Assembly: GCA_020796225.1 (NCBI GenBank)
Contig: CM036755.1
Coordinates: forward strand, 87,055,303-87,119,302
Length of the DNA stretch: 64,000 bases
Direction of reading: 5' to 3'
From: Arion vulgaris
Taxonomy: Eukaryota; Mollusca; Gastropoda; Stylommatophora; Arionidae
Each line of letters opens with the position of its first letter. The stretch's first letter is position 1. The notes under the pieces are model-generated. The model was not told where the DNA came from. It saw only the letters and a list, made by a program, of their open reading frames with translations, and ran no database searches. Both the position numbers and the translations under genes were made by a program. Shown here piece by piece: positions 2,670 through 54,100 of this stretch.

Positions 2670-3018
2670 CAGTTATGCTGTTGATTCACTCCCACACTTT
2701 GCTATCGATTCACCCCCATCCCCCACCCCCTTGCTGTCCTCCTTTCAGCCCCACATTTTGATGTTGATTCACCCTAACATTCACTTTGTTGATTTACGCT
2801 CACATTTTGCTGTTGATTACCCCCTACCCCCAAATCACATTTTGATGTTGATTCACCCTCACATTTACTGTTGATTCACCCCACATTTCAATGTTGATCC
2901 ACCTCACATACTGTTGATTCACCCTCACATTTTGCTGTTGATTCACCCCCACCACACCTCCATTTTGCTGTTGATTCACCCTCACATTCACGCTGTTGAT
3001 TCACCCTCACATTTACTC
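2670..3018 (+). repeat. CT-rich minisatellite next to the PHD exon acceptor, free of AG
   Basis: Irregular tandem copies of about 23 bp around GTTGATTCACCCTCACATTT. Between the AG at 2747-2748 and the acceptor AG at 3030-3031 the + strand has no AG dinucleotide. Each unit is pyrimidine-rich, so the array works as an extended polypyrimidine tract. Confidence 0.85.
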
Positions 3019-3031
3019 TGGTTATTCTCAG

Positions 3032-3153: not shown

Positions 3154-6100
3154 GTAAGTTCCTGTTGAGCAGTGTTTCTTAAATGTGCTCTTACAGTTGA
3201 TTGATAAGACCATCACCGTTGCACTTTGGTGAGTAACCATGTGTGTTCCGATCTCTGTCTTACAGAGGAAGATCTCAGTGGCACTGCACGAATTCCGTAG
3301 CACTGGTGAGGGTCCCCGATGCAATTTAGAAAATATTTTGTAGGAATTTTATTGTTTAATCTTTCAATGAATTTTGACTGGGAAGTGGCTGTCCAGCCTG
3401 CTCTACTCGATTTTGAACTACAAAGTGTTCTTTTAGTGCTCAATTTGGAAACATCATCTACAGTTTATCATCCGTCTCCGATATGCAGGTAAAGTATCAT
3501 AGGGATTTTTTGTCTGACTATATGTTATGTCTGGCATATAGGAAAGCTGAATTTTTTGCTTCATTTCTATCATTTGCTTGATAAAATCCTTTTGGTCGAA
3601 GCGTCACCGTATCTTATTTTTTTGTGCTGTGTAAAACTATATTACTTTGTTTTGATGTGTTTGTCAAGTAACAGAAAGATGAGTTATCTCCATGATGATC
3701 CACAGTAGCGACCCTATTCTGTCTATAGTTTCATTGACACCAACCCTTTCGCTGCTACATACTTTCTGAAGATGGAGCTAAAAATAGCTACTCTTTGTTT
3801 CTAGGTCAGAAACGTGAACGTACGCCTATAGCAGTGACAGTAGAAATGTATAACGTGTTATAACACGTCTTTAGCCCACAGAGGAGAGATAATAACAGAT
3901 GTGTTAATGTGTCTTTAGCAGTGAATGGGAAAAACATCTATACACATCCTTAGCAGCTAAAGGGTGTGATGATGGGTACATGTTCAATTTCCATTGCTGG
4001 GTATCCATGTCTGTTAGGATTGGTTTGTTCTGACTTCAGTGGAGAGTTGTTGTGGGGTCTTCATTTCCAAGTTCGTTGGTATCCTATCATTACTAGCAAG
4101 GCATCGAAGGTAGGAAGAATGCTTGCTAATTAACTCTTTCCGTACACAGTTATTTCTTCAGTTGTACACGGTTAATTCAAGATAGGCAAAAGCATTTTAA
4201 AAATCTTAGCTACTTGTTAATAAATAAACTTATATATATCGTATTATATACTAATTTGAAGAAAACTGGATAACCTATTAGAATAACAAGGTTAAATTGT
4301 AGTAGATGTAACAAAAAAATAGAAAGACTTGTATAAAGGGAAACAACTTGAATGTTGCAGTGTACAGTGAATGGCGTTCAATGGAATACGCTGTGGTGCA
4401 GTGTGCAGCGATTGGCGTGGAAAGAGTTAATCTTTGCTTCTCATGGAGCATAGAGTCTAAATAGTTGTCCTTCACTTTTTCCCGATATCTGGCTATTCTC
4501 TTTATGGCTACCTAGGATAATCCTGCATCCTTCGATTCCTCAGGTTTGTTGGGGTGTCTCCTTTTCCATTTAACTAGTGGGTTCCACTCAAGTGCTTGTC
4601 TAGGGACACTCGGCTGTATCTTCCGCAGAGTATGCCATTCACCCACCATTTCCTGCTCCTGACCTGGGTCATCAAGAGTTCCTGCCCTGTTCTTATCCAC
4701 TAGTGTATATTTGTCATTCTGTCATACCATTTCAGTCTGAGAATATGCAGAAGACATTTGATGATCAATTCTTTTTAATGCTAATTCCTTGTGGACCAAA
4801 CACCACACTACTTGCCTTTGTGTTTAATGCCTTTTTTACCAGGAGCCACACTAAAGAGTGTTTTTTATTTTAAAAACAATGGCTTGTAAGAACACAGCTT
4901 TTGCCCTGGTTCACTAAGAGGTAACTTGGTGACTTGTCATCATTTTCCGAGTCATACATCAAGACAAGATTTTACATTTGAGTTGAATATTCTGAACTTT
5001 GTTTTAGTTAAGTTTGGACATTCCAGACAGTGTCGTCTTCGTAGTAGAGAGATAAAATATACTAATCAACTTCTCATGGGTATGTCGAGCAAGTAGACTT
5101 TGGGATGATGGCTGCTGCTTCAGAGGACAGAGCATGCATGAAACTGCCCAGTGTGCCATGGTGTCGATCGCGTAACATAACATCGTCTTAGAACAAACTT
5201 TGTTTGGTGCATAGGTCCTACACGCAATAAGTACCTATGAGCCTGGGCGCAATGTGTTCACGATCTTTTGGCAGACCACACAGACCATAAATAATGGTTA
5301 ACTTGGTTGATAAGAGCGAACACAATGAAAAAGAAGGTTAACATACAGATTAAAAATGCCAGTGTGTTGCAGAGGCTTGCAAGGGAGCACAGAATAGTAA
5401 CACTGCGCCCTACAAGGTTTGTCGTAAGAGGTGACTGAGGTAGGGGCTTAGGGAAACTACCCTAGTAAATAAAAAGCATTGCAGAAATCGAATGTGCTGG
5501 GCTATGTGTAGCCGCATAACTGGCACAATGTATAATTGCTCTTAGGCTCAGATCACATACAAATCACAAAGAGTGGTTCAACAAATGGTCGTTGGAGAGC
5601 GTTTGAAGAAGATATAGATAGTAGTACGTAACATTCTGTCACTGATCTGATCTACATATAGATAGATAGTATGTAACATTCTGTCAATGATCTGATCTAC
5701 ATATAGATAGATAGTATGTAACATTATGTCACTGATCTGATCTACATATAGATAGATAGTATGTAACATTCTGTCAATGATCTGATCTACATATAGATAG
5801 ATAGTATGTAACATTCTGTTAATGATCTGATCTACATATAGATAGATAGTATGTAACATTCTGTCAATGATCTGATCCACATATAGATAGTAGTACGTAA
5901 CATTCTGTCACTGATCTGATCTACATATAGATAGATAGTAGTACGTAACATTCTGTCACTGATCTGATCTACATATAGATAGATAGTATGTAACATTCTG
6001 TCAATGATCTGATCTACATATAGATAGATAGTATGTAACATTCTGTTAATGATCTGATCTACATATAGATAGATAGTATGTAACATTCTGTCAATGATCT

Positions 6101-9100: not shown

Positions 9101-12100
9101 TCCCAGTCAATGCTGCTACTGGCATACAACATATACTCAATTCATCTTCATCCCAGTCAATGCTGCTACTGGCATACAACACATATACTCAATTCATCTT
9201 CATCCCAGTCAATGCTGCTACTGGCATACAACATATACTCAATTCATCTTCATCCCAGTCAATGCTGCTACTGGCATACAACACATGCTCAATTCATCTT
9301 CATCCCAGTCAATGCTGCTACTGGCATACAACATATACTCAATTCATCTTCATCCTAGTCAATGCTGCTACTGGCATACAACACATGCTCAATTCATCTT
9401 CATCCTAGTCAATGCTGCTACTGGCATACAACACATGCTCAATTCATCTTCATCCCAGTCAATGCTGCTACTGGCATACAACACATGCTCAATTCATCTT
9501 CATCTTTTAATAATGGTCTTCGGCGACTCACAGTTTAAGTGATTAATATTATTGCAACTAAACTGTGTTAGAAAATGACTAAAGAAATAGATATTGAAAT
9601 AGATATCTGCTAAAAATAATGAACATAAAATGGGACGAATTCGGAAATGATGAACTCAAAGAAATATCTTGTCAACCACTAGTAACATCTGTTATAAGAT
9701 GGAGATATGTTGGACATACCTTAAGAAGTAATGATCAAAGAATACCAAACCAGGCAGTGAAGTGGGAGATAAAGGGTTCAAGAAAGAGAGGCGCCTAGGA
9801 AACCCTTAAATGAACTTGTTAAGATGATGATGACGCACCTTGATGATGATGTGCTGTTTCTAGTGATTAATATTACTGCTGCTGCTACTACTACTTCTTC
9901 TTCCTAGTTATTTGTGCTACTACTACAACTAAACTTTCTTGCTCACTCTCTTCACCTTTCAGCTCCCAATGGAGCACAGGTCTTCAACAAATTTCTTCCA
10001 GTCCTTCCTCTCTCTTCCCATCCCTTCCAATTCTTTCCACATCTTACTTATCTTTTTCATTGTTCATGATTGTTCATTGTTCATTTGAGAATCATCTTCA
10101 TTGCACATCAGACATGTCCATAATTCTGCCGATCTCCTCCCAAGCTTATATTTCAGTATGTTTAGGCTAACAACTCCCATTCTGTGTTGATTGATGTATC
10201 TACTCAATTTTCTCTTGTTGTTTTCCCATCCTGCCGCACCTATCGGTATGAACAACTTGCGCAACCGAGATAGAGAATACTCTTTATCTTCTTCGTTGAA
10301 ATCTTCAGAGCGTATGTTTTCTCTTAGAGCGTTGATGATGTTGCTTTTGTCCATAAATGACCCATTCTCGATCATAGCATTGGCCGCAAGTGCTTCCGCT
10401 CTCTCATTGCCCTTGACCCAGGCGACCGGGAGAAAGATGAAGGTAAGTGTTTGGATTGTTGCGTTTTGTATTAATTCCATCCACTGTCTTCTTACATGAC
10501 CAGTCTTGATCTTCTGTATCATGCTCATAGAGTCGCTGAGCATGCATGCATGAGTGAATGTATGCGTCTGTATCCACTCCATGGATTTTGTCACCGCCAT
10601 GACCTCCATAGTAATGCTGCTGGTAGTTGTCGCATATGCGCCACTTGCCTCATTGAATACTTTTCCGTTAGCTCTAGCCGTAAAGGCCCCATGCCTTTAA
10701 TCTTTTTAATATCAGTCTCCAGATATCTTCTGCAGGTATTTCTAGGCCTTCCCCTACTCCTCTTTCGCTGCGGGTTCCAAAACAGTGCCTGTCTTGCAAT
10801 ATTTCCATCCAGTCTTCTGATTGTGTGTCCTATCTATAGCCGGAGTCTCTTCCTTAGCTCTTTGTCCAAGGTTATCTGCTTAGTTCTTTCTCCGAGTTCA
10901 TCTTTCGTAATCTTATCATACCATCTCAGTCCCTCTATTCTACGTAAACATCCATTTACATAGGTCTGTAGTTTTCTGGTGGGTTTCTTTTGTTGCTCTC
11001 GATGACTACTGCTACTACCACCGCCACTACTACTACTACTGCTACTACCCATTTACTACAATTTTTACTACTACCACCACTTCTTCTTCCTCCCAGTAAT
11101 TTGTGTTACTAATACTACTACTACTGCTACCACTACTACTACCACCACTACTACTGCTACTACTACTACTACTACTGCTACTGCTACTACCACTACTACT
11201 ACTGCTGCTACCACTACTACTACCACTACTACTGATGCTCTCTGCTACTACTACTACTACTCTGCTGCTACGCTGCTACTACCACTACTACTGCTACTAC
11301 TACTGCCACTACTACTACCACTACTACTACCACTGCTACTACCACTACTACTACTACTACTACCTACTACCACTACTGCTGCTGCCACTACTACTATTGC
11401 TACCACTGCTACTAAACCTCCATGTTTCCAGTGATTAATTGCGATTTCTGTGTCATCTCACAGGCTGTAACCACAAGTAAACTTCTGCAAAAGTGCATTG
11501 GGAGAAAGTGCAACAAGTCTCCTAGACTTGGCTCTGTCTATTGCAGTAATGAATGTATCATGAGCCATGCCCAGGAATCTCTGAAGATAATACGAGAGGA
11601 ACACATGCACAATAAGGTAATTATCAAGTATTTGTACTAGAACATGGGGCCTCTGTGGTGTAGAGACTAAGTGCTTGTCTTTTGTGCCAAAGGTACAAGG
11701 TTCGCTCCCTCGTAGAGCCATCTGGATATTTTTCCAGAGATCACTGATCTCAGTGTAGGTGAGATTGAGTTCCTAGTCCTATCGGAGACGGATGATAATT
11801 GCAGGTCCCGTGTTCAATTTGAGCAGTTAAAAATCATGAAGAGCAGGCTCAAAAGCTGCTGCCCGGTCAAAATAAGGACAGATAACTACAATTAGACAAT
11901 AAATCCCTAACAGCTCAAAAATGTGTTAATTTCTTCCATTCTGGTGTATCCTTTGCTTGATAAAGGAATTTTATTGAAACGTCACGGTGTATTGTTTTTG
12001 TACTTTGTAAAACTATATAACTTTTTTTATGTGTATTCTGCTATATACAGTGTTACAGAAATCATAAAGAATAATAAGCATACAGAGAATGAGAAAACAA

Positions 12101-15100
12101 CAACATACATTCAAGTATATGCCCCATATAACGACAATAAGAACGAAGAAGAACTAAAAGATTTCTTTGAAAGTCTCTCTATCACTTTAAACAACATCAA
12201 AAGCAAAGAAGAGATCTATGTAATGGGAGATTTGAACGGAAGAGTAGGGAAGAAAACATGACCATGAACACTGTTTATGACATTTTGGAGACATCAACAG
12301 AACGAAACAACAATGGGGAGGAGCTAATAAATCTATGTTTAGAACATGGTCTAATAATAACAAACACATTTTATCAACATAGACAGAGCCACATAAAAAC
12401 TTGGTACCGATGGGACAATTTGCTTCAAGCGTCACAGATTGATTACATACTTGTAAGATACAGGCAGAAGGGATATATCACAGACGCCAGAGTTATACCA
12501 AACATTAACATAGATACCGACCATCGACCTGTCGTAGTAACTGAAAGAAGACAATCGCTGAGACCAAAAGCAATATTCACAAGCACATCCTGTTATAAAA
12601 GTGGTTATCAGTGACCTAACTTTGACCTTTGAAATTGACACATGAAGGAGCGTTCGGTCGAATGGATTAGAGCGCAACTCCTATGTGGGAGACCCGTGCT
12701 CAATTCATGGTTAGGCCAAGGATTTTTTCTGTTGTGAGTATAAATGATAAATCCTAACCTGAACAACTTCACAGTGACTGTACTAGCCATGTAGCCATGA
12801 AATTCCTCGGGCTCTCGTCCCACTTGACCTACACTGCCCTAAAAAGCGGTATTACAGGCAGTAACAACATAAAAATGATGAACCAGGTTTTCTGGGCTAG
12901 GGTTAGGTTAATATTCTGCATTCGAAGGGAGGAGGATGTGTAAATGATTCAAGGAATGAGGTAAAATCTGCAACACTAACCAGACTGCAAGAATACCAAA
13001 TCAAATGTGGTGTAGCTAGACAAGACCACTATACTGGAACTCAGAGAAGAATAGTAAATCAACATAGAACCGGTGTTGTTAGTTTCTACACACTGAGAGA
13101 CATACTGAGGAGAAGATCGGAGTACTAATGGACTAATTGGTTCGATGTACAGTGATGATGATCTGACGACTAAACTAAACTGAGAGACATACTGTGGAGA
13201 GGATCGGATTACTAATGGACTAATTGGTTCGATGTACAGTGATGATGATCTGACGACTAAACTAAACTGAGAGACATACTGAGGAGAAGATCGGAGTACT
13301 AATGGACTAATTGGTTCGATGTACAGTGATGATGATCTGACGATTAAACTAAACCATGAAACATACTGAGGATGAGATCGAAGCGCTTATGGACTAATTG
13401 GTTTGATGAACAGGGATGATGATCCGACGAATAAACTAAACTAAACTGAGAGACATACCGAGAAGGAGATCAGAGAGCTTATGGAGGTTCGATGTTCTTC
13501 TTCTAATGCTCCAGACCTACCATTTGTTAAACTACTCTCTGTGATTTGTATGTGATCTGAGCCTAAGAGTGATTGTACCTTGTACTAGTTATGCGCCTAC
13601 AAGTAGACCAGCTCATCAAATTTCTGCACCACTTTTTATTTAGTAGTGTAGCTTCAGTCAAAGAAGAATAGTAAACCAACAAAGAACTGATGGATGTTGT
13701 TAGTCGCCACACACCGAGAGACATACTATGAAGATAGAAGCACTTATGGACTAATTGGTTCAATGTACAGTGATGATGATCTGATGACTAAACTAAAAGT
13801 GATATTCTTTTGTGATTTGTATTCCTCTTCAGATCAAAGAAAAGGAATTGTCTAGCGACAGTAACAAAAGCTCATCATCATCTTCACTACAATCATCATC
13901 ATCATGTGCTGACACGGTTGAGGTCATAGAAAGACAGACGGGTAAGGTCCTCAAGGGATCCAGCGCTCCGACACAGAAAGGATTACATCGGTGGTTGGAG
14001 CAGCATCCAACATTTGAGGTTGTTCAGCCACACAGAGGACACAAGAGACACAGGAGCTCATCTTCTAGTGAGTCAATGTCTGTGTTCTATCCATTACTTT
14101 GTTATGTTGTATCTTTACTTTGTTATGTTGTATCTTTGTTATGTTGTATCCATTACTTTGTTATGTTGTATCTTTGTATGTTGTATCTTTGTTATGTTGT
14201 ATCTTTACTTTGTTATATTATATCTTTACTTTGTTATGTTGTATCTTTGTTATGTTATATCTTTATGTTATATCTTTACTTTGTTATGTTATATCTTTGT
14301 TATGTTATATTTTTGTTATGTTATATCTTTACTTTGTTATGTTATATCTTTACTTTGTTATGTTATATCTTTACTTTGTTATGTTATATCTTTACTTTGT
14401 TATGTTATATCTTTATTATTTTATATCTTTGTTATGTTATATCTTTACTTTGTTATGTTGTATCTTTACTTTGTTATGTTGTATCTTTACTTTGTTATGT
14501 TATATCTTTACTTTGTTATGTTGTATCTTTACTTTGTTATGTTATATCTTTACTTTGTTATGTTATATCTTTATTATTTTATATCTTTGTTATGTTATAT
14601 CTTTACTTTGTTATGTTGTATCTTTACTTTGTTATGTTATATCTTCACTTTGTTATGTTATATCTTTACTTTGTTATGTTATATCTTTATTATTTTATAT
14701 CTTTGTTATGTTATATCTTTACTTTGTTATGTTGTATCTTTACTTTGTTATGTTGTATCTTTACTTTGTTATGTTATATCTTTACTTTGTTATGTTGTAT
14801 CTTTACTTTGTTATGTTATATCTTTACTTTGTTATGTTATATCTTTACTTTGTTATGTTGTATCTTTACTTTGTTATGTTGTATCTTTACTTTGTTATGT
14901 TATATCTTTACTTTGTTATGTTATATCTTTATTATTTTATATCTTTGTTATGTTATATCTTTACTTTGTTATGTTGTATCTTTACTTTGTTATGTTATAT
15001 CTTCACTTTGTTATGTTATATCTTTACTTTGTTATGTTATATCTTTATTATTTTATATCTTTGTTATGTTATATCTTTACTTTGTTATGTTGTATCTTTA

Positions 15101-18100
15101 CTTTGTTATGTTGTATCTTTACTTTGTTATGTTATATCTTTACTTTGTTATGTTGTATCTTTACTTTGTTATGTTATATCTTTACTTTGTTATGTTATAT
15201 CTTTACTTTGTTATGTTATATCTTTACTTTGTTATGTTATATCTTTACTTTGTTATGTTATATCTTTACTTTGTTATGTTATATCTTTATTATTTTATAT
15301 CTTTGTTATGTTATATCTTTACTTTGTTATGTTGTATCTTTACTTTGTTATGTTATATCTTCACTTTGTTATGTTATATCTTTACTTTGTTATGTTATAT
15401 CTTTATTATTTTATATCTTTGTTATGTTATATCTTTACTTTGTTATGTTGTATCTTTACTTTGTTATGTTGTATCTTTACTTTGTTATGTTATATATTTA
15501 CTTTGTTATGTTGTATCTTTACTTTGTTATGTTATATCTTTACTTTGTTATGTTATATCTTTACTTTGTTATGTTGTATCTTTACTTTGTTATGTTGTAT
15601 CTTTACTTTGTTATGTTATATCTTTACTTTGTTATGTTGTATCTTTACTTTGTTATGTTATATCTTTACTTTGTTATGTTATATCTTTATTATTTTATAT
15701 CTTTGTTATGTTATATCTTTACTTTGTTATGTTGTATCTTTACTTTGTTATGTTATATCTTCACTTTGTTATGTTATATCTTTACTTTGTTATGTTATAT
15801 CTTTATTATTTTATATCTTTGTTATGTTATATCTTTACTTTGTTATGTTGTATCTTTACTTTGTTATGTTGTATCTTTACTTTGTTATGTTATATCTTTA
15901 CTTTGTTATGTTGTATCTTTTACTTTGTTATGTTATATCTTTACTTTGTTATGTTATATCTTTACTTTGTTATGTTGTATCTTTACTTTGTTATGTTGTA
16001 TCTTTACTTTGTTATGTTATATCTTTACTTTGTTATGTTGTATCTTTACTTTGTTATGTTGTATCTTTACTTTGTTATGTTATATCTTTACTTTGTTATG
16101 TTATATCTTTATTATTTTATATCTTTGTTATGTTATATCTTTACTTTGTTATGTTGTATCTTTACTTTGTTATGTTGTATCTTTACTTTGTTATGTTGTA
16201 TCTTTACTTTGTTATGTTATATCTTTACTTTATTATTTTATATCTTTGTTATGTTATATCTTTGTTATGTTATATCTTTACTTTGTTATGTTGTATCTTT
16301 ACTTTGTTATGTTGTATCTTTACTTTGTTATGTTATATCTTTACTTTGTTATGTTGTATCTTTACTTTGTTTGTTTGTATCTTTACTTTGTTATGTTGTA
16401 TCTTTACTTTGTTATGTTGTATCTTTACTTTGTTATGTTATATCTTTACTTTGTTATGTTATATCTTTACTTTGTTATGTTGTATCTTTTTATGTTATAT
16501 CTTTGTTATGTTGTATCTTTTACTTTGTTATGTTATATCTTTGTTATGTTGTATCTTTACTTTGTTATGTTATATCTTTGTTATGTTATATATTTGTTAT
16601 GTTATATCTTTGTTATGTTATATATTTGTTATGTTATATATTTGTTATGTTATATCTTCACTTTGTTATGTTATATCTTTACTTTGTTATGTTGCATCTT
16701 TGTTATGTTATATCTTTGTTATGTTATATCTTTACTTTGTTATGTTCTATCTTTACTTTGTTATGTTATATCTTTATTATGTTATATCTTTGTTATGTTG
16801 TATCTTTACTTTGTTATGTTATATCTTTGTTATGTTGTATCTTTACTTTGTTATGTTATATCTTTGTTATGTTATATATTTGTTATGTTATATCTTGTTA
16901 TGTATATATTTGTTATGTTATATATTTGTTATGTTATATCTTCACTTTGTTATGTTATATCTTTACTTTGTTATGTTATATCTTTGTTATGTTATATCTT
17001 TACTTTGTTATGTTGTATCTTTGTTTTGTTATGTTATATCTTTACTTTGTTATGTTGTATCTTTGTTTTGTTATGTTATATCTTACTTGTTATGTTGTAT
17101 CTTGTTTTGTTATGTTATATCTTTACTTTGTTATGTTATATCTTTACTTTGTTATGTTATATCTTTACTTTGTTATGTTGTATCTTTGTTTTGTTATGTT
17201 ATATCTTTGTTTTGTTATGTTATATCTTTACTTTGTTATGTTATATCTTTACTTTGTTATGTTGCATCTTTGTTATATTGTATCTTTACTTTGTTATGTT
17301 GCATCTCCACAGAAGATGACAAACAAAAGAAAAGATTCAAAGTCCAACCAACATTCTAAAACTCCATCAGGCAAAGATACAAAGACATCCACTGACAAAG
17401 ATAAACGGTTGGAACGAGATGACAGATCTCGGCATAGTAGTGCCAGTAGTAAAGATTCCGGAAAGAAGAGTGATAACGATAAACGAGTTTCAAGCTCTCA
17501 GAAACCTGATAGTTCTACAAATAGTTCCAGAACTGAGGAGAGAAGAGATGAAGGCCCAAACCAAATTCGAATCAATGTCCGGACAGCACTTAAAGACTGC
17601 CTTTCTGCTCGGTAAGAAAGTTATGTATTTTACTGTTTAATTGCCGCTGAGATCTTCCTATGTAAGAAAGAGATCACAGCACACATGGTTACTTACCAAA
17701 GTGCAATGATCTTCTTGACGCTCCATATCCACCACTTGTTAACTACTCTGTGTGATTTGTATGTGTTCTGAGTCTAAGAGCTATTGAATGCCATGCCAGT
17801 TATGCGCCCACAAGTAGGCTGTCGCATCCAATTTCTGCTATGTTTTTTTTTTACTTAGCTTCCCTAGGTCCTTCATCAGTTGCCTCTCATGACATGCCTT
17901 GTAGGTCGCAGTGGTACTATTCTTTGCGGGCCCGCACCACATGGGCAAGTGCAATGATGATGGTCCTATCAATCAAGGGTTTAAAAACAAACGATTGACT
18001 TGCACGGGTTTTACCCGTATGGCTCAGTCCTCTCTGCAGAAATGGAATGCCACCTACAGAGAGGAAACATTTCTAAAAAAAATGCACGCTGGAACAGAAA

Positions 18101-21100: not shown

Positions 21101-24100
21101 CTAAACTATGCAAGCAGCGCATGCTCGTCTTGCAGTGGATACTGTCTTATTATGGAATACCAGGAAATGAAACAGCAGACCGACTGGCCAAGGAAGGTGC
21201 TGCAGAAGAGCAACCGGATGTGCCAGTTACCTACCATCAATAGAAAAGGATGATTACATCAATCAGAAAGCCACACATACCAACACAAGACAACTACTAT
21301 AATATGAGCAAATATAGAACAAGTTGTCATTCTGCACCTCAGAACAGGACACAATCGACTCTGCAGTCATAAAATGTAAGATTGGCAATTCAGCCATGTG
21401 TACATGTGGATAGCCACACCAGACAGCAGAGTACATACTTCAAGACTGTCCCAAATATAATATACTGGGGCAAACTTGCTGGCCTAATGAAACAACACTC
21501 GACATAAAACTACACTGACCTCTGTGTAAGTGATAAAAGACAATGAAGTTTATACAACCGACAATGTTGAATATATCGAAATATTTCAAGCGAACGAAAG
21601 GAAAAGACAATCCATTTGTTTTTAGAATAAAAAACACCATTTAGTGTGGCTCTGGTAAAGGTGTCAACCCAAAGCCACTTAGTGTGGCATTTGGTCTACA
21701 AGGAGTTAACATGTGGTACTTTATCACGTCAGAATAAATTGATTGAACTTCAAATGTGATTTGGATGAAAACAAAACGTGAGTTGACTAGCAAAAATGTG
21801 AGTATATTGAACTCAAAATGTGAATTTGCTCAAGAAAAAATGTGAATTGACTGCACCCAAAATGTGAATTGACTGAAATCAAAATGTGAATTGACTGAAG
21901 TCAAAATGTGAATTGACTGAAATCAAAATGTGAATTGACTGAAATATGTTTTGTTATTTTTGTATCAAGGAACTTGAAATGATTGAGAAGACTGAACAAG
22001 AAGCAATGAAGGAATGTGAGACATCTAAACATGTTAGAAAGAAGACACACAAGGGGGAGGTTGAAGTTGAAGAAGAGGACTTGAGTATTCTTGAGGTATG
22101 TTGGTTTTTACTTTATGTTCTTCATTTGCTCGATATCAATCACTTGTTATAGCATTTTTTGTGGTCTGTATGTGATTTGTGACTTGGAGCATGAGCTCGT
22201 TGCTAGCAGACACACAAGAGAATTAAACTACTTCCACACAAGCTGTATATGCAGAATACTAAAAATAAACCGGCAGGACAAAGTTCCGGATACCGAAGTC
22301 CTCATAAGAGCCAAGATTCCAAGCGTCAACACCCTGTTTCAGAAGGCCCAAGTGAGATGGGCCAGTCACGTTGCTCGGATGCCTGATAAATGCACCCCAA
22401 AACAGCTTGAAGGGGGCAGACGATCAGTTGGAGGGCAGAAAAAACACTTTCAAGACACTCATAAAGTGTCTCTCAAATTCTTCTTCTTTTCTTCTTCGAA
22501 TGCTCCATATCGACCACTTGTCAACCACTCTGTGATTTGTATGTGATCTGAGCCTAAGAGCGATTGTACTGTGTAAGAGCTGTGCCAGTTATGCGCCGCT
22601 TTTTATTTACTAGGTACCATCCCTAGAGCCTACATCAGTCGCCTCTTACGATATGCATTGTAGGTTGCAGGGGTACTATTCTTTGCTTCCTTCGGACCCG
22701 GCACCACACAGGCATCTGAAATGCTTCAATATACACACCACGGGCTGAGAACTGCACAAGATCGCCAAATGTGGCGCTGTAACAACACAAGAGAAACTCG
22801 TATGCTGAGAATCATCATGTTCAGAGATAAACTGTTCTATTTTCCTATTGTTCTTGTCATGTTCAGAAATAACTATTTTTTGTGTCTGCAATGTTGTTTC
22901 CAGGTTCGATTGGAGGAGAGAAAGGACCCAGAACCAGAACCTGAAGAAGAACAGACACAGATCCCGGTCATTGACACAACAGATCAGCACAGAGCACATC
23001 TGTTTGACCTCAATTGTAAAGTGTGTACAGGCAAAGTTGTGCCAGGACTTCAGGAACAGGCTGCTATGGTAGCAGCAGAGAAGGTAGTGTGTATGTGTAG
23101 ACCATATTATGTGTGGTTGTAGTGTTTATTATGGTATATGTTCTGTGAAGAAAACAATCAAAGATTGAATCATTCAAAGATTGAACAACTCAATCAAAGA
23201 TTGAACAAGACTCAATCAAAGATTAATCACAGTTCAATCAAAGATTACGCCTGTGTGTTGTCGAAGCTCGAAAGGGGAGCAAAGAATAGTAACACTGCAA
23301 CCTACAAGGCATGTCATAAGAGGCCACTGAGGTAGTGGCCTGGGGAACCTACACTAGTAAATAAAAAGCGTTGCAGAAATCGGATGTGCTGGCCTACACG
23401 TAGGCACATAACTGGCACAACGTACAATCACTCTTGGGCTCAGATCACATACAAATCACAAAGTGTGATCTAATAAGTGGTTGAAATGGAGCGTTCGAAG
23501 AGGAAGAATCCAAGATTGATCAAATTTCAATCAAAGATTACTCACTATTCTTATTTATTTCTTTAGTTTGGGACAGCAGCGACACAAGAGAGCTCTCATG
23601 TCGATTCAAAGGATATAGAAGATGCAGAGAAAATTGTGAAAGAAGCCATAGAAACTGCACAGAAAATGGAACAATCTTTGTCAAAGGTTGTGTTATCCTC
23701 TCCCAGATCAGAAGAGATGCTTCCCTCTCCAAGTCCTAAACTGGACACAGCACGTCGGGGGTCTACATCGTCTACATCGTCTGCTTCATCATCATCTGTA
23801 AGAAACAAGGTTGTTGTTCGGTAGGTCAAACATTATTGTATATAGTATAATTGTTTGGTTTGATATATATATATATATATACATACACTTTGCCACCCTA
23901 AAAGTCCTTCAGAATTTCTCTCTCTCATAGGTCAGATGCCCGTCTCTGCAGCCATCATGCTCAAACCATCAGTTACATCCTGAATCAGTCTTCTCCATAG
24001 TTCTCTTCTCTGCCGGGATGGCTCCTTCCATGATGGTCTTCTCTAACCCTTCATATGTTCAAAGTACTTCAATTTTCTCATTATTATTTGTAGCATCAGC

Positions 24101-30100: not shown

Positions 30101-33100
30101 TTTTAAAAACTGATGTTGCTTTGACAATTCGTATCATAATTTCTTTTTCAACATTTCCTGTGCAATCAAAATTGCTACCTAAATAGGTGAACTGCTCTGT
30201 TGTTTTTATCATTTTAGATTCCAGTGTGATATTTGCATTACTTGCCATAGGTGTCTTCATGATATTTATCTTGTCATAGCTTATCTGCAGTCTAACTTTT
30301 GTTTGCTATATATTTACACTTAGTAGTGTCTTCTTCTTCACACTTCTAGAGAGGCATAGGTCCGCAAATAAGGCCTGCCAAGCCCACCTTTCCAAGGCCA
30401 TCTTTTCCAGATCTCTCAGTATCTCATTTTCTTGCATTTTTTTCTCCATCTCCAGGTGTTCCGAGTCTTCCCTTACCTCTATTGTCCTGGGGATTCCATC
30501 GGAGAGCCTGTCTGGTGATGCTGTCAGGGGGTTTCCTCAGTGTGTGTCCTATCCATCGCCACCTTCTACTCCTTATCTCTTGTTTCATCTGCCGTTGTCC
30601 TGCACTATCCCACAGTTCCCTGTTTATGGTCCTGTCATACTATCGCAGATGGAGTATCCTACGCAGGCATCTATTGATGAATGTCTACAACTTGTTGGTA
30701 CTCCCCTTATTTGTTCTCCATGTCTCCGCTCCATCCAGAAGGACAACCTTTACTTAGTAGTGTGAGACCTGTTAATTTCTCTTCAAGCAGTTTGAGTAGA
30801 TTTTTTGTGAGAAAAAGGAGTAGACTAAATTGTTTTTGATGTTGATTTGGTTTGCAGGTTTGGAAGAAAATCGTCCGCATATGTTGATAGGGATTATGGT
30901 TCGTCAGCGAGTTAAATATGGGAGTACTACTAATGATTCCAGTGTGACAGACAGTGGGAAGTCAGACAGCAAAAACATCTCAGAAAGTGGGAGATCTGTC
31001 AGTCACAGTGGTACAGGAATTAAGAAGACTGACAGCTATAGCAGTGCAGGAAGTAAGAAGATTCTTACTTATAGCAGTGCAGGCAGTGAGAAAAGTGGCA
31101 GCGCAGTAGCTGGGAAACCTTCCAGCCAGACCATCATTGGAAGTGGCACCAAGCGAGTGGCCTCCGCAGTCAACAGAGATCCACGTTTGGCAAAGCTTGC
31201 AGCAAGAGAAGGAAGCGTAAGTAGATCTTAACACCATTTCTCTTTCCTCAAATTTTCATCCTAACTACTTTATCAGTTATAGGAGACCTATCATCATAGC
31301 ACTCCAGACATGTCCATAGATGCTCTGATCTCTGCTTCAACAAATCCAGCAGCATCCAGTGGCCCAACATGCCAGCTCAATGTTGATTAACTCCTTGTAG
31401 ACAAACGCCACACTATGTGGCTTTGGTATGGCGCCTTTTACAAGCCACACTAAAGGGCGATTGAAATAGAAAAACAAATCACTTGTAAAAACATGGCTTT
31501 TGCCCTGGTCCACTAAGAGTTAATCAATCTCTTTACATATTTGGTATGCTGTTCCTTTTGGGCTGTACCAATATCGACACCCATCTCTCTCAGTTTAGAC
31601 AGTGAGTGGGACAGACAAAACTGAAACTCCTCTGTTCGGAAAGATACTCTCAATGCACTGAGAACTGACACTGTCATTTCAGCTCCCTTTGATAGTGTAG
31701 CCATGCCAGCCAATCTATCAGTTTCTTCATTACCCCTGACTCCTGCATGCTCAGTGACAAAAATAATTTCTCTGTGATTTCTCTGATCCATGTCTGTATC
31801 AGTACCTAAACCAACTACTTTCTGCTTCGAACTCTTCATATCGACCACTTGCTAACCACTCTGTGTGATTTGTATGTAATCTGAGCCTAAGAGTGATTGT
31901 ACGTTGTACCATTTATGCGCCTACAAGTAGGCCAGCACATCCGTTTTCTGTGACGCTTTTTATTTACTAGGGTAGCTTTCCTAGGTTCTACATCAGTTGC
32001 TTCTTACGACATGCCTTGTAGGTCACAGTGGTACTATTCTTTGCTTCCCTTGTGGGCCCTGGCATCACATGGGCAACCGACTACTTTAAAAGTATACAAG
32101 TCTGTGTCTGAAAACATTGGAAGAAGAAGAAGAAAGAGTAGTATAGAATCTTTGAAAACAATGTGCTTCTGAAAAATGTTTAGAACATATTGGACAGAGA
32201 AGAGAAGGAATTATAGACATTCTGCAACAGTTTAACATAGAGGAACATAAGGAAGAGTATCCTGTCTCGGAAACTAATAATTTTGCTCAAAATAAACGGT
32301 ACAGGGGTTTAGAGAGATAAATAATCACGGGTATTGTTCCTGGAAGACAAGGCAGGAGACAACCAAGATAATGATGGCAATATGACAATAATGAAACCTT
32401 TAACGTGACAATGAAAAATTAAAATTGTTATAATTTTCTGATGTTTCTTCTCATTTGCCATTATTTTAATTTTTCTGTTTATTCTTTTTTCCATTGTTTT
32501 TTTTTCTGTCTGTTCTTATTTTCTATTATTCTAATTTTCTGATATTTCTTCTAATTTTCTATTATTCTAATTTTCTGATATTTCTTTTCATTTTCCATTA
32601 TTTTAATTTTCTGATATTTCTTCTAATTTTCTATTATTTTTATTTTTCTAATATTTCTTCTCATTTTCCATTATTTTAATTTTCTGATATTTCTTCTAAT
32701 TTTCTATTATTTTAATTTTTCTAATATTTCTTCTCATTTTCCATTATTTTAATTTTTCTATTTCTTTCCATTGTTCTATTTTTCTGATATTTCTTTCCAT
32801 TGTTCTATTTTTCTGATGTTTATTGTCGTTTTCCATTGTTCAAATTTTTCTCACATTTCTGCTTTTAATGCTATCCATAGCCAAAGATAAGTCCTTCAGA
32901 TAGCATCAACATTGGTACACCAAGTGCCACAGAGACAAAGCCAAAAAGCACAGAAACTAGTGAGGCAGAGTATATCCCTACACCTATTGTACCAAAATGT
33001 GAGTACATGTTATAGTGTCATTTATTCTACAAACAACAAACTCAAATCTTTACTATCTTTGCTCATTAGTAGAAGAAAAACTCTCATTAAAATCTCTTGT

Positions 33101-36100
33101 TACTGCCTGTAATACTGCCTTTTAGGGTGGAGGAGAATAGTGAGGACATGTGCCTGTGGAGTTGAATAGCCGCATAGCTAGTGTAGTTGATGTGAAGCTG
33201 TTCAGGTTCTGATGTTTTTGTTATATCTTATGTTCTTTATGTCTGGATAGTCAATTCATTTAACTTTAACTGATTTCGTACCACGCGTGTCAATATATTT
33301 TATTGTATGGACCACATCAATCAGAAGACGTTTACTATTTCGTTGAGTTTTTATTACTTTTCATTCCGATTAGAGTATTATTTTAACCACACACTACTTG
33401 AAAGTGAAGTACAAACGATAACGAAAACATAGCATCATTGCTTATAATAGTAGACGTGAAACAGAGTTTACCATTCATTCTAGAATACCTTGTGACTGTA
33501 AAAAACGAGATTTTTATGAATGGTCATGATGCTAGTTTGTGAACAGTTAATAAATCATACATTCCTTCACAATTTTCTTAATGTTTGTGTATTCATAAAT
33601 GGATTACATATATAAAGAGAGCAGTTAGACTGAGTTATACAACATATTGTTCATCAAGGCCCTTGAAAAGTTGGATTTTTGTTCTCACAATTTCACTTAG
33701 TTTTTTTAATACATGCTAATATTTTTCGTGCATAGTCAACACATTATTTTTTCGGATACAATAAATATTTGTGAATGTACGTTCATTTATCTTCAATTTG
33801 ATATATAATAAGTTCAACTTTAAATCATATTTAGAAACACTATATTAGTTTTGCTAAAGTATGTGTACAATATTTTTGATCCTAAGAAAATAATTCCATC
33901 CAGAGGCGAAAAAACCTGACAGTGACTCAGTTAAAACCATATATAACATGTCTATTTTCAATGCAAGAAATATATATGGCTGTTTGTAATAGAGCAGGTC
34001 ATTAAAAAAAAAACCTTAAAAACCCATGAACATTTAAGAGTTGAAACTCCACAATATCACAGCATATCAAGCGACTGAGCGTGCACTATCTCAGAAGCCG
34101 ATCATCAGTTAAACATACGACTCCTAACAGCAAAAAAGCAGAGCAGGCTAAAAGAAAGAAAGAAAGTTTAATGCCTTGTCTGCACATGTTTGTTGTGTTG
34201 CAATAACAATTTTCATTGTTATATTTTCTATAATATCAGGTGCTAACAATCCAGTTGCTGAGTATATACCTACTCCAACAGTGAGGAAGAAGGATAGAGA
34301 GAAGGATAAGTCTGATGATAAAAAAAATGAAAGAACATCCTCTACGGATGAATTTTCTGGCAGGGATAACAAGGATGAGAAGGAGAAACATCGGCACCAT
34401 CACAAAGATCATCATCGACATCATCACCGCCATCAGCATCATCATAAAAAACCAGAAAAGGAAAAAGAGTTAGAAGGTAAATATTGGAAAAGTTATCAAA
34501 TGTTTTCAGTTTGGAATATCTTCATTGTACTTCGGACCTGTCCATATGTGCTCCGATCTCCTTTACAATATCTCCAACAGCATCCATTGACTTTCCATAC
34601 CAGTTGGTGGTTGATTGATACAAAAAAAAACCTGTAGTTACTGCCTGTACTACTGCATTTTAATGTGGTATAGGGTATGGGGGTATGAGCTTGTGGAATT
34701 TATTTGCCACATGGCTAGTGCAGTCGCAGTGAAACTGTTCAGGTTAGGATTATTTCCTAAGCCACTACTTATGCTGGCTGCTGTGTAGTTACTGTGCCCC
34801 TTGTGGTAATATATGTTCCAACTATGAGGCAGAGATTATAGCCATAAAGACCGCTGTAGAACTAGTCCACCAGCAGTTTGAACTTGGAGAAAGTATTGTC
34901 CAAGACATGATAGTATTCACTGACTCACAGTCCACACTACAAGCTTTAGAAGAACAGTAGAATCAGTCAAGCGAGATCCAGTCATTGGCATCAGTCATAC
35001 ACAATCTGATTTCCTCCTTTGATATTAATGTCATTCTACAGTGGATCCCTGGTACACAAATATCCCTGGAAATGACAAGGCGTGAGTTCCTATTGTGATT
35101 GTGTCCTGTTCTAAGGAACAGAATGGCAACTTGTTCCAATCTGCTCATATTATAGTAATTGTCTTGTGTTGGTATTTGTGGCTTTCTGATTGATTTAATC
35201 TTCCTTTTCTTTTGATGGTAGGTAACTGGCACATCCGGTTGCTCTCCTGCAGCACCTTTCGTGGCCAGTCGGTCTGCTGTTTAATTTCCTGGTTTTCCAC
35301 AGTGAAACGGTATCCACTGCAAGATGACCTTGCACTGCTTGCATAGTTTAGACAGTAGGGTCTGTAGACATGGCAATTTTTTGCATTGGAGTGCTGATTT
35401 TGCATCTGTAAAAAATACAACAGGTAGTGGATCAAGTGTGGTGTTCAACAGTTTCTCATTAGCCACCTTGATTGCCTGAAGTTCTGACTCTCTAGTATAG
35501 TTATTGATATAAAAACCACTCAGATTATAACTCACGGTAGCCACCTTGATTGCCTGAAGTTCTGACTATCTAGTATATTTATTGATATAAAAACCACTCA
35601 GATTGTAACTCACGGTTAATGGTGAATTTTTCAGATGATTCTGAACCGTATTCCCCTGGAAAGGAAGCAGAACCATATTCTCCAAGTCAAGAAGCTGCGG
35701 CAGATGAGCCCTATGATCCGGCAGATGAGAACTTAATGGATGATTCCGTTCCTCTTGTTGTGACCAACACTGAGACCAGCAGCAGCAGTAGTGGCATCTC
35801 CAGTAATATTAAGCAGATGGTTACAGCAACAGCACCACTAGCTGCTGAGGGTACGGTTGATGCTTCAAACACAAACTTAGAAACTTTTCAAGAAGAACCA
35901 TCTGTTGGGAAAGTTCATAGTGACCCTGCTGCTCCACAGGGAGGTAAGTGTCTATGAATAATCTGTGTAATGGAGATCTTCTTTTGTTATCACACTGTTA
36001 CCAGGTTGTTTCCCAGTACCCCACGTGTTGCCGGGGCCCACAAGGGAGCAAAGAATAGTAACACTACGACCTACAAGACACGTTGTAAGAGGTGACTGAG

Positions 36101-44900: not shown

Positions 44901-44959
44901 GTCTAAGTAGGTGCGTATATACATTCTTCTTCTTCAATGATCCGACGGAGCTTAGGCTT

Positions 44960-45090: not shown

Positions 45091-45094
45091 ATGA

Positions 45095-45940: not shown

Positions 45941-45949
45941 TGCCCGTAT

Positions 45950-46860: not shown

Positions 46861-46899
46861 TCTGTAAATAGCTAACACCAGTGAAGGGAACAATCTTGC

Positions 46900-47580: not shown

Positions 47581-47589
47581 AGCGCACAC

Positions 47590-47870
47590 AAAAGTCAGTT
47601 CTAAAAATCTCTTCTTATCCTGATGTTGCGAGGCAAAACAGGATTACAGAAGTACATACAAAAGCCAGTTCTAGAAATCTCTTCTTATCCTGATGTTGCG
47701 AGGCAAAACAGGATTACAGAAGCACACACAAAAGCCAGTTCTAGAAATCTCTTCTTATCCTGATGTTGCGAGGCAAAACAGGATTACAGAAGTACATACA
47801 AAAGCCAGTTCTAGAAATCTCTTCTTATCCTGATGCTGTGAGACAAAACAGGGTTGGAGAAAAGACTTAA
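47590..47870. repeat. Tandem hairpin repeat, 59-bp unit, four to five copies, beside the NPC1 stop
   Basis: Each unit has CTTCTTATCCTGATGTTGCG and CAAAACAGGATTACAGAAG, which pair as stem (TATCCTG / CAGGATTA and CTTCT / AGAAG). It lies about 80 bp downstream of the NPC1 stop codon and so probably in its 3' UTR. Confidence 0.85.
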
Positions 47871-47948
47871 TACTTATAATATCACAACTGCATTGAGTTC
47901 TACTATTCATATTTGTGGAAATGACATTTATGAAACCATTTTTCTGTT

Positions 47949-48100: not shown

Positions 48101-51100
48101 CTGTAAGTCAAACAAAAACAATTCAAAATTAGAACTAATTTTTTATTCATAGAATGTGGTTTTTCTGTGTTAAATTTCAGATAAGTGGATACACTGTGAG
48201 GAGTGTCTGGTCAACAGGATTAGAGTGCTGGCTCCCATTCGTGAGACTTGGGTTCAATCCCCCGGTTAAGACCAAGGAGTTTTTTCTGTCAGGGGCATAA
48301 GGAAAATATCCCAACATGACAAAAACATCCTAACCGAAACAGTTTCTCAGTGACTGCACTAGTCATGCGACCAAGAAATTCCTCAAGCTCATGTCCCTCT
48401 GTCCTAAACCGCACAAATAACAGTAACACAGGCAGTAACGACAGTATATACTGTACTGGGCAAGCGGGTGTTTGTGGTAATGAGAGAGCAGACAGGATTG
48501 AATCAACAGCATTGATTGTTGGGGAGTTGAAGATAGATAAGGGGTAAGTACTTCAGCCTCTTGACTGTCATCTGTAGGATGAAGGCATTATAATTGATGT
48601 TGAATCCACCTGTGTGGTGACATTCAAATTTAGAATGCCTTGCTGGTTGTGTTCATAAGGACGCTCGTATTGCTAGGCTAGGCGATGGGTGTCATAGGAA
48701 ATGAGGGTAAGTGGTTCGAATCCTGTGTTTGTCTATTTGTTTTTCGAAAGCTCTTAATACTTGTACACTGTTTTTTGTTGGGATGTTTAACCAGCGAGCC
48801 ACAGAAACCAACTGTACACATACTTAATCCGTTTGGTCGTTGAAAACCAAACCTCCTATCCGTCTTCAACTTCCCACTCATCTTAAGTTGTCCCACTCAT
48901 CCCAAATAGTCCTATTGGTCCCAAGTTCCTTTCTGCTCAGAAGTCAATTTGTCAGTCCCACTGGTCCCAAGTTCCTATCTGCTCCGAAGTCAATTTGTCA
49001 GTCCCACTTGCCCGAAGTTGCCCCACTGGTCCCAAGTTCCTATAGTTATATTATTGAACATGTATGTATATATTTCAGCATCCACATCACCATGGCAACC
49101 AGAGCTTACCTAAATAACTGAGAAACACTGGCAGGAAGACGAGACCATGTGAGGCACCAAACAGAACCATGGCCAGATACATCCGGAAGTAGAACACTTG
49201 AAACAGCTGTGACTTGGAGAAAGCTAGCATGATGATACCAGCCACCTTTGTTAAAGTGATGCCACTCAGAACCTGTTCGATGGATACATGGTTATTCATT
49301 ACGGATATGGATAACAGTGTAGATATATGTGTGTCATGTACGGATATTGGAGGAATGTTTGGCCGAATGGATTAGAGCGTGGCTCCCATGCGGAAGATCT
49401 GTGTTCAATTCATGGTAAGGCCAAGGATTTTTTTCTACTGTGTGCATACAAGAAAAATTATAACTTGAACAGTTATAAGGTGACTGCACCAGCCAGGCAA
49501 CCATTAACTCCTTGTGTACCAAACGTCGCACTAAAGGGCGTCAGCCAGGCGACCATTAACTCCTTGTGGACCAAACGTCGCACTAAAGGGCGTCAGCCAG
49601 GCAACCATTAACTCCTTGTGTACCACCAAACGTTTCACTAAAGGGCGTCAGCCAGGCGACCATTAACTCCTTGTGGACCAAACGTCGCACTAAAGGGCGT
49701 CAGCCAGGCAACCATTAACTCCTTGTGTACCACCAAACGTTTCACTAAAGGGTGTCAGCCAGGCGACCATTAACTCCTTGTGGACCAAACGTTGCACTAA
49801 AGGGCGTCAGCCAGGCGACCATTAACTCCTTGTGGACCAAACGTTGCACTAAAGGGCATCAGCCAGGTGACCATTAACTCCTTGTGGACCAAACGTTGCA
49901 CTAAAGGGCATCAGCCAGTCGACCATTAACTCCTTGTGGACCAAACGTCGCACTAAAGGGCGTCAGCCAGGCAACCATTAACTCCTTGTGGACCAAATTT
50001 CACACTAAAGGGTGTCAGCCAGGCAACCATTAACTCCTTGTGGACCACCAAATGTCGCACTAAAGGGCGTCAGCCAGGCAACCATTAACTCATTGTGGAC
50101 CAAATTTCGCACTAAAGGGCGTTTTTTACTCTAAAAACAAATCTGTCCTGGTCCACTAAAAGTTAAATGCCCTAGGCTCTCATCCCACCTGTCCTACACT
50201 GCCCAAAAAAGCAGAACTACAGGCAGTAATGACAGCTTTTAAAATTGTTTTTATTTTATTACAGATATGGATAACATAGTGGATATATGCATGTCTATTA
50301 TGGATATGGATATATATGCCATATTCTGCTTTTTATTTCTGATCTGTATTTATGATCCGATGTTACCAAGCCTCCGATGTATTTAAATTGATGTACTTGT
50401 CATAACTCTGTCCCATTTGCTGCGATTGTGCATTTTGTTGAGGTGAGGTATGATGAAAAAATAAGTTCATAAACACTGTTTAGCCAAATCTTCTTCTTCA
50501 CCTTTCAACTCCCAACGGAGCACAAGTCTTCAACAAACTTCATCCAGCTCTTCCTCTCTTCTGCCTTCTAATTATTTTCATGTTTTACCTATTCTTTTAA
50601 TATCAGTCTGCAGCTCTCTTCTCTAGGGATGTCTAAGTCTTCTCCTACGGGTTCCAAAACAGTACCTGTCTTGCAATACTTATAGTCGGTCTACTCAATG
50701 TGTGTCCTACCCATCGCCAGCGTCTCTTCCTTAGTTCTTTCTCTGAGTTCCTCGTTTGTAATCTCACCATACCATCTCAGTCTCTCTATTCTACATTTAA
50801 CCAAATATGCAAAACTAAAAATTATTTTAAAACAAAAGATAATGAATATCTTCCTTACCGAGCTGCCCATAAGAGCTAAAGCTTCCTTGGCCCGTTCCTT
50901 GCGTGTGGGTTTAATACTGATAGTGAAGGCTCGAATAATGTGAGAACAAAACTCCACAGATATACCAATAGCCTGTTGATATGGGAGATAATTAAAAACA
51001 TTGGTTAGATATTTGTGTAGAATTAATTCACTTGTACATAGAATAATAAATCATAAACTCCTACCTCCCCTTGAAGAAATTTCCTGAAAATTATGTCCGT

Positions 51101-54100
51101 ACTTACTTCATGCATAATTCCACAAAACATGAATTTCATTGCCACTAACAGACTATGACTTCTCTGCACACAAAACTTGTGTGTTGTCTTCATGTGGGTG
51201 TGCTGCCTTCATGTGGGTGTGCTGCCTTCATGTGGGCGTCTGTAAGCTTAAACAGTAGTCAGCTCAATCATAGCCCATGCGTACCTGGTTCAAACTCTGC
51301 AGCAAGCAGTTCCCATGGTTTTTTTATGAGCTGTAAAAATAGACCCTACAGTTCAGAAAGCAATGACAAACTATTGAACATATACGTGGTGCCTAGAAAA
51401 TCGACGACCCATTTACTGTGGTTGATAGCAACGCCCTGTAAAGGATATGCCACAATTTTCATTTCTCTCCCTTCGTGCATAATTCAACAAAACATTTATT
51501 TCATTCCACCAACAGACTATGACATCCCCCACAAAATGTCTATATCAACTTGACACCGTAACTTACCATAATAAGGTTGACCAGAGACAAAGCATTTAAC
51601 TCGATATCCCAGAGATACATCAACCCCATGATGTTGACCAAGATCATCAAGATTGTGATGACCACGATGATGGAGGCATAGATGTCGAACCCCAGCAGCA
51701 GGAATGTGATGATGAGGATTGCTGCCAGACAGTAGGTGATGTTCAGGATAGCGTTCTCAACGATGTCCAAATACTGCTCATAGAACACATAGAACACACT
51801 GGGGATTTCACATGAAGAATAGAATAAGATAGATATGTAAGAGAACATAGAACATGATGACGATGTAATAGAACATAGAACATGATGATGTAAGAGAACA
51901 TAATGATGATGTAAGAGAACATAGAACATGATGATGATGTAATAGAACATAGAACATGATGATGATGTAATAGAACATAGAACATGATGATGATGTAAGA
52001 GAACATAGAACATGATGATGATGTAAGAGAATATATAACATGATGACGATGTAAGAGAATATAGAACATGATGATGATGACGATGTAAGAGAATATAGAA
52101 TATGATGACGATGTAAGAGAATATAGAACATGATGACGATGTAAGAGAATATAGAACATGATGATGATGTAAGAGAATATAGAACATGATGACGATGTAA
52201 GAGAATATAGAACATGATGACGATGTAAGAGAATATAGAACATGATGACGATGTAAGAGAACATAGAACATGATGACGATGTAAGAGAATATAGAACATG
52301 ATGATGATGTAAGAGAATATAGAACATGATGACGATGTAAGAGAATATAGAACATGATGACGATGTAAGAGAATATAGAACATGATGACGATGTAAGAGA
52401 ACATAGAACATGATGACGATGTAAGAGAATATAGAACATGATGACGATGTAAGAGAATATAGAACATGATGACGATGTAAGAGAACATAGAACATGATGA
52501 TGATGACGATGTAAGAGAATATATAACATGATGACGATGTAAGAGAATATAGAATATGATGATGATGTAAGAGAACATAGAACATGATGACGATGTAAGA
52601 GAATATAGAACATGATGACGATGTAAGAGAATATAGAACATGATGATGATGTAAGAGAATATAGAACATGATGATGATGTAAGAGAATATAGAACATGAT
52701 GATGATGACGATGTAAGAGAATATAGAACATGATGACGATGTAAGAGAATATAGAACATGATGATGATGACGATGTAAGAGAATATAGAACATGATGATG
52801 ATGTAAGAGAATATAGAACATGATGACGATGTAAGAGAACATAGAACATGATGATGATGACGATGTAAGAGAATATAGAACATGATGACGATGTAAGAGA
52901 ACATAGAACATGATGATGATGTAAGAGAACATAGAACATGATGATGATGACGATGTAAGAGAACATAGAACATGATGACGATGTAAGAGAATATAGAATA
53001 TGATGATGATGTAAGAGAACATAGAACATGATGACGATGTAAGAGAACATGATGATGATGTAAGAGAATATAGAACATGATGATGATGATGTAAGAGAAC
53101 ATAGAATATGATGACAATGTAAGAGGCCTAACATGTACGCCACAGTCAGCACAAACCACACAGATTACATTGTTCCTTTGAGGATCATCTTCATCGCACA
53201 TCAGACATGTCCATAATTGCTCAGATCTCCACCCAAGCATGTATTTCAGTGTGTTTAGACTAACAACTCCATTCTGTGTTGGTTGATGTATCTACTCATG
53301 GTTTCCCATCTTGCCGCAGTACTGGTATGCATAACTTGTGCAACCGAGATAGAGAATACCCTTTATCTTCTTTGTTGAAATCTTCAGAGCATTAGTTTCT
53401 CTTAGAGCATTGATGATGTTACTTTTGTCCATAGAAGTGTATTTTGTTGTACACAGATAACAAAGAGTAGTTAACTTGATTGAGAAGAACAAACGCAAGC
53501 AACAAACAACACAATAAATTCGAAAAAGGATGATGATGATGATGTGGGGGTGGTAGTTTTACCTGTATGGGAACACATTGTAATGGATTCCAGTTTCATT
53601 TAAAGTACTAGTGATGTTGGCAGCGATCTCTCGGGCATTTTTCAAAGCTTGAATATAATCATCAGATGTCTTCAATATGCTGTGATACGTCATAAAGTAT
53701 GTGGCTGTGTGAGAGATCAAAGATATAGACATAAAGTATGTGACTGTGTGAGAGATCAAAGATATGGGCATAAAGTATGTGGCTGTGTGAGAGATCAAAG
53801 ATATGGACATACAGTATGTGACTGTGTGAGAGATCACATATGGACATAAAGTATGTGGCTGTGTGAGAGATCAAAGATGTGGGCATAAAGTATGTGGCTG
53901 TGTGAGAGATCAAAGATATGGACATAAAGTATGTGGCTGTGTGAGAGATCAAAGATATGGACATAACATATAATTTGTGAGATACTCATTCACAGAACAA
54001 TAACCCTCCAACTTTCGCTACAAGACACTAACACAACAATAGTCTCCAACGTGACACAAACGCAACAATAGCCCCCAACGAGACACGCAACAATAGCCTC

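Follow-up and report, generated by a model that had tools for sequence, protein, structure and literature searches.

In a stretch of 64,000 nucleotides (nt) from Arion vulgaris (contig CM036755.1, positions 87,055,303 to 87,119,302), hereafter called the window, four 3' splice sites (acceptors) are preceded on the sense strand by runs of 281, 511, 1,327 and 3,238 nt that do not contain a single AG dinucleotide, and each of these runs holds a minisatellite array. Three of the acceptors belong to a gene on the plus strand that encodes PHD, BRK, TFIIS_M and SPOC domains, and one belongs to NPC1, the C-terminal part of which is encoded on the minus strand. The four-acceptor pattern is genuine and represents a known feature at an unusually large size. 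With regard to its origin, we lean towards minisatellites that were seeded inside the normal branch-point and polypyrimidine zone and would have been AG-free from the start. The four introns are occupied as follows:

2749..3029, plus strand: AG-free run of 281 nt before the PHD-finger exon 3032, with units of ~24 nt; the array (2744-3027 according to Tandem Repeats Finder, TRF) ends 2 nt before the acceptor AG
14068..17312, plus strand: whole intron consisting of an array of 21-nt units in ~160 copies, AG-free over 3,238 nt (14073-17310), between the BRK exon and an exon expected by order and frame to open the TFIIS_M region
32368..32878, plus strand: AG-free run of 511 nt before exon 32881, with an array of ~37-nt units (32434-32821)
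51801..53127, minus strand: AG-free run of 1,327 nt before the NPC1 exon 51798, with units of ~28 nt

The coordinates of the four runs, each of which is terminated by the acceptor AG, agree exactly with those given in an earlier note on this DNA, and the units of the four arrays are unrelated, as the note had also stated, since they share no mutual similarity (blastn, E ≤ 1e-4). The arrays stop 4, 12, 59 and 36 nt before the respective exon, and in the case of NPC1 the array accounts for 1,291 of the 1,764 intron bases. AG exclusion zones, taken as at least 100 nt without AG with the last 12 nt ignored, were found at the four acceptors, and ignoring these last bases leaves the run lengths unchanged.

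A total of 25 acceptors were placed by homology, frame and splice signals, with the sites chosen by hand, and all counts refer to the two genes within the 64-kilobase (kb) window; some exons may have been missed, chiefly within the 8.2-kb intron 3306-11463. The other 21 annotated acceptors have AG-free zones of 28-148 nt with a median of 50 nt, compared with 7 nt for the other sense AGs. When the 2,916 sense AGs of the two gene spans are ranked by the length of the AG-free run directly before them, four of the top five are acceptors (hypergeometric P = 2.1e-8).

The longest run deserves a closer description. The donor GTGAGT lies at 14068, the array begins 26 nt further downstream and it stops 12 nt before the next exon. 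The AG-free stretch 14073-17310 has no stop codon in any of the three sense frames, and the frame of both flanking exons continues through it. We considered and rejected the possibility that it is coding, since a protein whose domains are of the chromatin type would then contain a hydrophobic repeat of ~1,080 residues and since the stretch has the donor GTGAGT on one side and a good acceptor on the other. Each of the two longest arrays is crossed by a stop-free frame that continues into the following exon (1,270 codons at 13803-17612, plus strand; 583 codons at 51543-53291, minus strand), so that a retained array would meet no stop.

Minisatellites at the 3' ends of introns

That minisatellites cluster at acceptors is a finding that goes beyond the earlier note. 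Merging the overlaps among 69 TRF rows gave 27 arrays in the two gene spans, of which 25 were counted, leaving aside 2744-3027 (no upstream exon is annotated) and 31014-31092 (inside an exon); rows outside the annotated exon span, two rows in the last plus-strand exon and rows within larger arrays were omitted. Seven of the 25 intronic arrays (3306-63435) end within 50 nt of an acceptor, compared with 0.74 expected, one of the seven being an array that was trimmed by hand to its acceptor (53691..53966, see below), and none of 20,000 random placements reached seven. At donors, one array lies within 50 nt versus 0.72 expected. Next to the four AG-free arrays described above, the following arrays are found near acceptors:

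11107..11414, plus strand: AG-free array of the (TAC)n type, not the exclusion zone of the exon 11464 acceptor, with an AG in between
21737..21945, plus strand: array of 22-nt units with 5 AG, ending 24 nt before exon 21970
35460..35616, plus strand: two 78-nt copies with 9 AG, ending 18 nt before exon 35635, overlooked by the earlier note
53691..53966, minus strand: array of 39-nt units spanning the NPC1 acceptor 53704, of the mirage type discussed below, also overlooked by the earlier note
57416..57622, minus strand: array of 16-nt units with 13 AG, ending 42 nt before the NPC1 exon 57373

Altogether, there are nine arrays whose end lies no more than 60 nt from an acceptor, and five of them are AG-free, namely 2744-3027 (counted as such although one AG sits in its first five bases), 11107-11414, 14094-17300, 32434-32821 and 51835-53125. 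Among the arrays farther from acceptors there is no AG-free one (0/17; P = C(9,5)/C(26,5) = 0.0019). In the underlying table of 26 arrays the distance of 2744-3027 was entered as 2 nt, measured to the AG, whereas the others were measured to the exon, by which it would be 4 nt. The 3,367 AG-free runs of the antisense strand reach at most 205 nt. It therefore stands that AG-free arrays sit at acceptors and not elsewhere, and on the sense strand. The distant arrays that the earlier note had listed do carry AG (58, 13, 35, 19 and 200), and the arrays at its two exceptions near acceptors hold 13 AG (57416-57622) and 5 AG (21737-21945). As a fifth case, the run 11097-11429 had been put forward; it is indeed AG-free, but an AG intervenes before exon 11464, whose own AG-free zone measures 30 nt. 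The statement that arrays are tolerated next to acceptors only when they are AG-free does not hold as a rule here, since AG occurs in four of the nine arrays, all within 42 nt of an acceptor (21737-21945, 35460-35616 and, on the minus strand, 53705-53966 and 57416-57622), and in one of these every unit carries it.

Near and far arrays may differ in origin, since 13092-13475 and 37069-37475 share units with each other while those of the four AG-free arrays are private to each array. The shared tandem unit of 82-87 nt is common to 13092-13475, 13717-13799 and 37069-37475, where it points in opposite directions in the manner of a dispersed element.

Origin of the AG-free arrays

The four AG-free units consist of 71-78% pyrimidines, and the probability that a shuffled unit is without AG is 0.55, 0.64, 0.81 and 0.60 for the four units. 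In the two longest arrays AA, GA and GG are at zero as well, i.e. there is no purine-purine step at all; on the other side, the two shorter arrays hold GA and AA but no AG, where 6 and 3 AG would be expected by composition. Runs of at least 250 nt without a given dinucleotide (pooled with its complement) number five for AG/CT, four for GA/TC, four for AC/GT, eight for AA/TT and six for CA/TG, the latter being pieces of one array. The absence of AG would thus mostly not be a special exclusion, as the composition of the units can explain most of it. The possibility that base composition accounts fully for the AG-free arrays, which the earlier note had regarded as decisive against its reading, is largely borne out by the shuffled units, by the long GA-free runs and by the missing purine-purine steps; a shortfall of newly created AG leans weakly towards selection.

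This shortfall was seen in a comparison of substitutions in the four acceptor arrays with those in 12 others, of which 11107, 21793 and 57416 lie within 60 nt of an acceptor; the mirage-type array and 35460 were left out. The four arrays hold 11 (the 3.2-kb array), 6, 13 and 18 distinct substitution types, in total 48, and since the copies are homogenised and independent mutations are so few, array length in bases overstates the evidence. For the same reason we discarded the idea of treating the 3,238 nt as 3,238 trials. An AG-type change listed for 14094 is an alignment effect, as that array has no AG. Within the four arrays, CT creation amounts to 4 versus 9.3 expected (P = 0.045), AC creation to 2 versus 5.4 and GG creation to 1 versus 2.0; the 12 other arrays show 8 AG creations versus 13.1 expected and 8 GG creations versus 15.4 (P = 0.031). 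A created AG was counted only if it stands in the array and the expectation ignores neighbouring changes, so that the observed numbers are low in both groups.

Taken together with the clustering, these data make it somewhat probable in our opinion that the arrays originated within the native 3' zone of the intron. Minisatellite formation would be frequent at intron 3' ends in this genome. In the four introns, the unit would derive from the pyrimidine-rich sequence that separates the branch point from the acceptor and that ordinarily lacks AG over ~30-150 nt. Tandem copying may then have stretched this clean zone to 0.3-3.2 kb, with copies that carry a pyrimidine tract and recurring branch-point-like motifs. 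The absence of AG would mainly be inherited from the founder unit, and later purging of AG may add to it. Since ordinary AG-free zones measure 28-148 nt, a unit of 21-37 nt from such a zone would often be AG-free; with offsets entered by hand, the zones of 21, 18, 8 and 6 of the 21 other acceptors offer room for the four units. The four arrays contain 31, 134, 26 and 43 motifs of the branch-point-like form yUnAy, and such a motif is also found 13-40 nt from the exon in each of the four introns. Because of these motifs at -13 to -40 a distant branch point is not needed; splicing probably still uses a branch point near the exon, and the arrays are presumably without harm.

Some of our observations weigh against such an origin. 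For two of the four arrays, ordinary zones are mostly too short. The NPC1 unit at 51835 together with its offset fits only 6/21, and the figure of 8/21 for the 32434 unit holds only if decayed copies reach to ~20 nt from the AG, as with the end given by TRF (57 nt from the AG) it is 2/21. Because the 32434 unit so rarely fits ordinary zones, we have slightly lowered our confidence in an origin from the native zone and slightly raised that in selection. Furthermore, AG-creating substitutions are absent from the four arrays, whereas 3.2 are expected from the transition and transversion counts (P = 0.041), and in the same arrays the creation of GA (2 versus 2.6 expected) and AA (3 versus 3.75) is normal, which leans to selection.

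It is conceivable, although on the unlikely side, that AG is selectively excluded: if any branch point in the array can be used, a new downstream AG would be taken as acceptor, alleles with AG would be purged, and only AG-free arrays would persist. The complete lack of AG-creating types and the branch-point-like motifs that recur along all four arrays fit this idea. There is also a precedent in human AG exclusion zones with distant branch points, described with lengths of up to 400 nt (Gooding et al. 2006, PMC1431707): in the 381-nt zone of PTB exon 11, a branch point at -351 is used although the position -51 offers a candidate with a high score, and this case cautions against assuming that the near branch point is used here. 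However, after scaling by the AG ratio of the other arrays (8 versus 13.1) the P-value for AG creation rises to 0.14, and the equally low CT creation in the same arrays and GG creation in the other arrays illustrate that values of ~0.04 arise without a reason. The missing AG creation is therefore a weak lean towards selection, and the four arrays that hold AG near acceptors speak against it. A more far-reaching version, which we hold to be doubtful, is that this lineage grows minisatellites from a module of branch point and polypyrimidine tract, giving dozens of interchangeable branch points and kilobases without AG, with AG-gaining alleles removed and the acceptor reachable from kilobases away.

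If, on the other hand, there were no link to splicing beyond pyrimidine richness, pyrimidine-rich arrays would be AG-poor anywhere and their position at acceptors would be due to chance or to detection. Across the 26 arrays AG density does drop with pyrimidine content (Spearman -0.67), and long GA-free runs are about as common as AG-free ones. However, we regard this explanation as quite improbable, given that an acceptor marks the exact end of four among the five longest sense runs without AG (P 2e-8), that arrays are enriched at acceptors and not at donors, and that the sole pyrimidine-rich array away from acceptors (10853-10903, 71%) holds AG. An artefact, i.e. array lengths or an AG-free state resulting from mis-assembled or error-laden reads, is very improbable. 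Small indel errors are likely in this assembly, as the NPC1 frame change near 63525 and the mismatch between 14067 and 17313 indicate, but the two genes together show four arrays that are unrelated to each other, AG would not be lost through such errors, and the copies vary in an ordered way.

Relation to known systems and the array at NPC1 acceptor 53704

The AG-free runs resemble human AG exclusion zones in that the AG-free stretch extends far beyond the usual 40 nt and contains branch-point-like motifs; compared with the cases described there, they differ in reaching up to 3,238 nt, in being built from tandem repeats and in having candidate branch points near the exon too (PMC1431707). Being several-fold longer than the ~400 nt of these human cases, they are natural test pieces for how far upstream of its acceptor a branch point can be placed. 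The many near-identical units found at several acceptors also record mutations, and at whole-genome scale this record could reveal directly whether stray AGs are selected against; clustering at acceptors but not at donors would, if genome-wide, point to a repeat-forming process tied to intron 3' ends. Having seen two genes, we regard both of these as leads.

In amphioxus, tandem repeats of intron-exon boundaries have been described as mirages, which are reported not to disturb the mRNA (PMC3087553, PMC3902484). The arrays in the window share with mirages their location as minisatellites at splice junctions. A tandem unit that spans the boundary was found at 53691-53966 only, so that this NPC1 array shares the mirage layout, whereas the four AG-free arrays exclude the boundary and its AG: they stop 4-59 nt before the exon and have no acceptor AG inside. 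The 39-nt unit of the NPC1 array reads TCTTTGATCTCTCACACAG followed by CCACATACTTTATG, which corresponds to the acceptor and the first exon bases, and each unit holds CACACAG. Six copies of the 3' splice site (acceptor AG plus first exon bases) precede the real acceptor at 53704. For the array counts, its start was trimmed from 53691 to 53705, so that its distance of 0 results from the trimming, and the real acceptor is one of its 7 AGs. Since the unit corresponds to 13 open codons, splicing to one of the upstream copies would lengthen the protein without shifting the frame. At this acceptor the protein of a relative (P0011) shows a plain junction without insertion. The predicted NPC1 of Plakobranchus (P0001) has an in-frame repeat of AYGPGVDLVNDGHQEQRVG just before ATYFM, i.e. 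at the same junction as the array.

A tract that can be compared by its description is the 2.5-kb polypyrimidine tract in intron 21 of human PKD1, discussed for its DNA structure (PMC11696556). The likeness lies in a kilobase-scale pyrimidine-rich intronic repeat. Judged by titles and the starts of abstracts among the matches listed, the literature on minisatellites at branch points, at splice junctions or in mollusc introns holds nothing beyond the amphioxus mirages, and "AG exclusion zone" and "tandem repeat" occur together in no paper among the matches listed.

The two genes and minor observations

The combination of PHD, BRK, TFIIS_M and SPOC domains in the plus-strand gene is the domain set of the PHF3/DIDO1/pps family. 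Exon 3032 encodes the PHD finger (Pfam, E 1.9e-10) and exon 51798 on the minus strand belongs to NPC1 (E 5.3e-19), while exons 17313 and 32881 were placed by frame and splice signals only. Exon 17313 is situated after the BRK exon and before those that match positions 42-113 of the TFIIS_M profile, and exon 32881 follows the SPOC exons in the downstream direction. The BRK-TFIIS_M junction found no match in a protein search, and Rfam at gathering scores gave no hits. Four exon ends were guessed, with 150 nt assumed for 26551, 54652 and 50972 and the end of the open frame for 38119.

The coding frame of NPC1 shifts near 63525 on the minus strand at a T-run. By arithmetic, the splice from 14067 to 17313 joins an exon end of phase 1 to an exon of phase 0, probably because of an indel in an A-run, and the two cases together suggest one-base homopolymer indels of the assembly. 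The NPC1 exon start at 51779-51798 on the minus strand reads TGTGTTCTATGTGTTCTATG and resembles the array unit ATGTTCTATGTTCTC just upstream, which may be either chance or a trace of a boundary duplication. The arrays 7404-7751 and 47563-47863 have related tandem units in opposite orientations, ~66-78% alike. In the protein search, the joined NPC1 peptide was most similar to a protein from Plakobranchus ocellatus, a sea slug (64% identity), which points to a mollusc as the probable source of the DNA, and a lower-ranked match showed 82% identity over 66% of the query.

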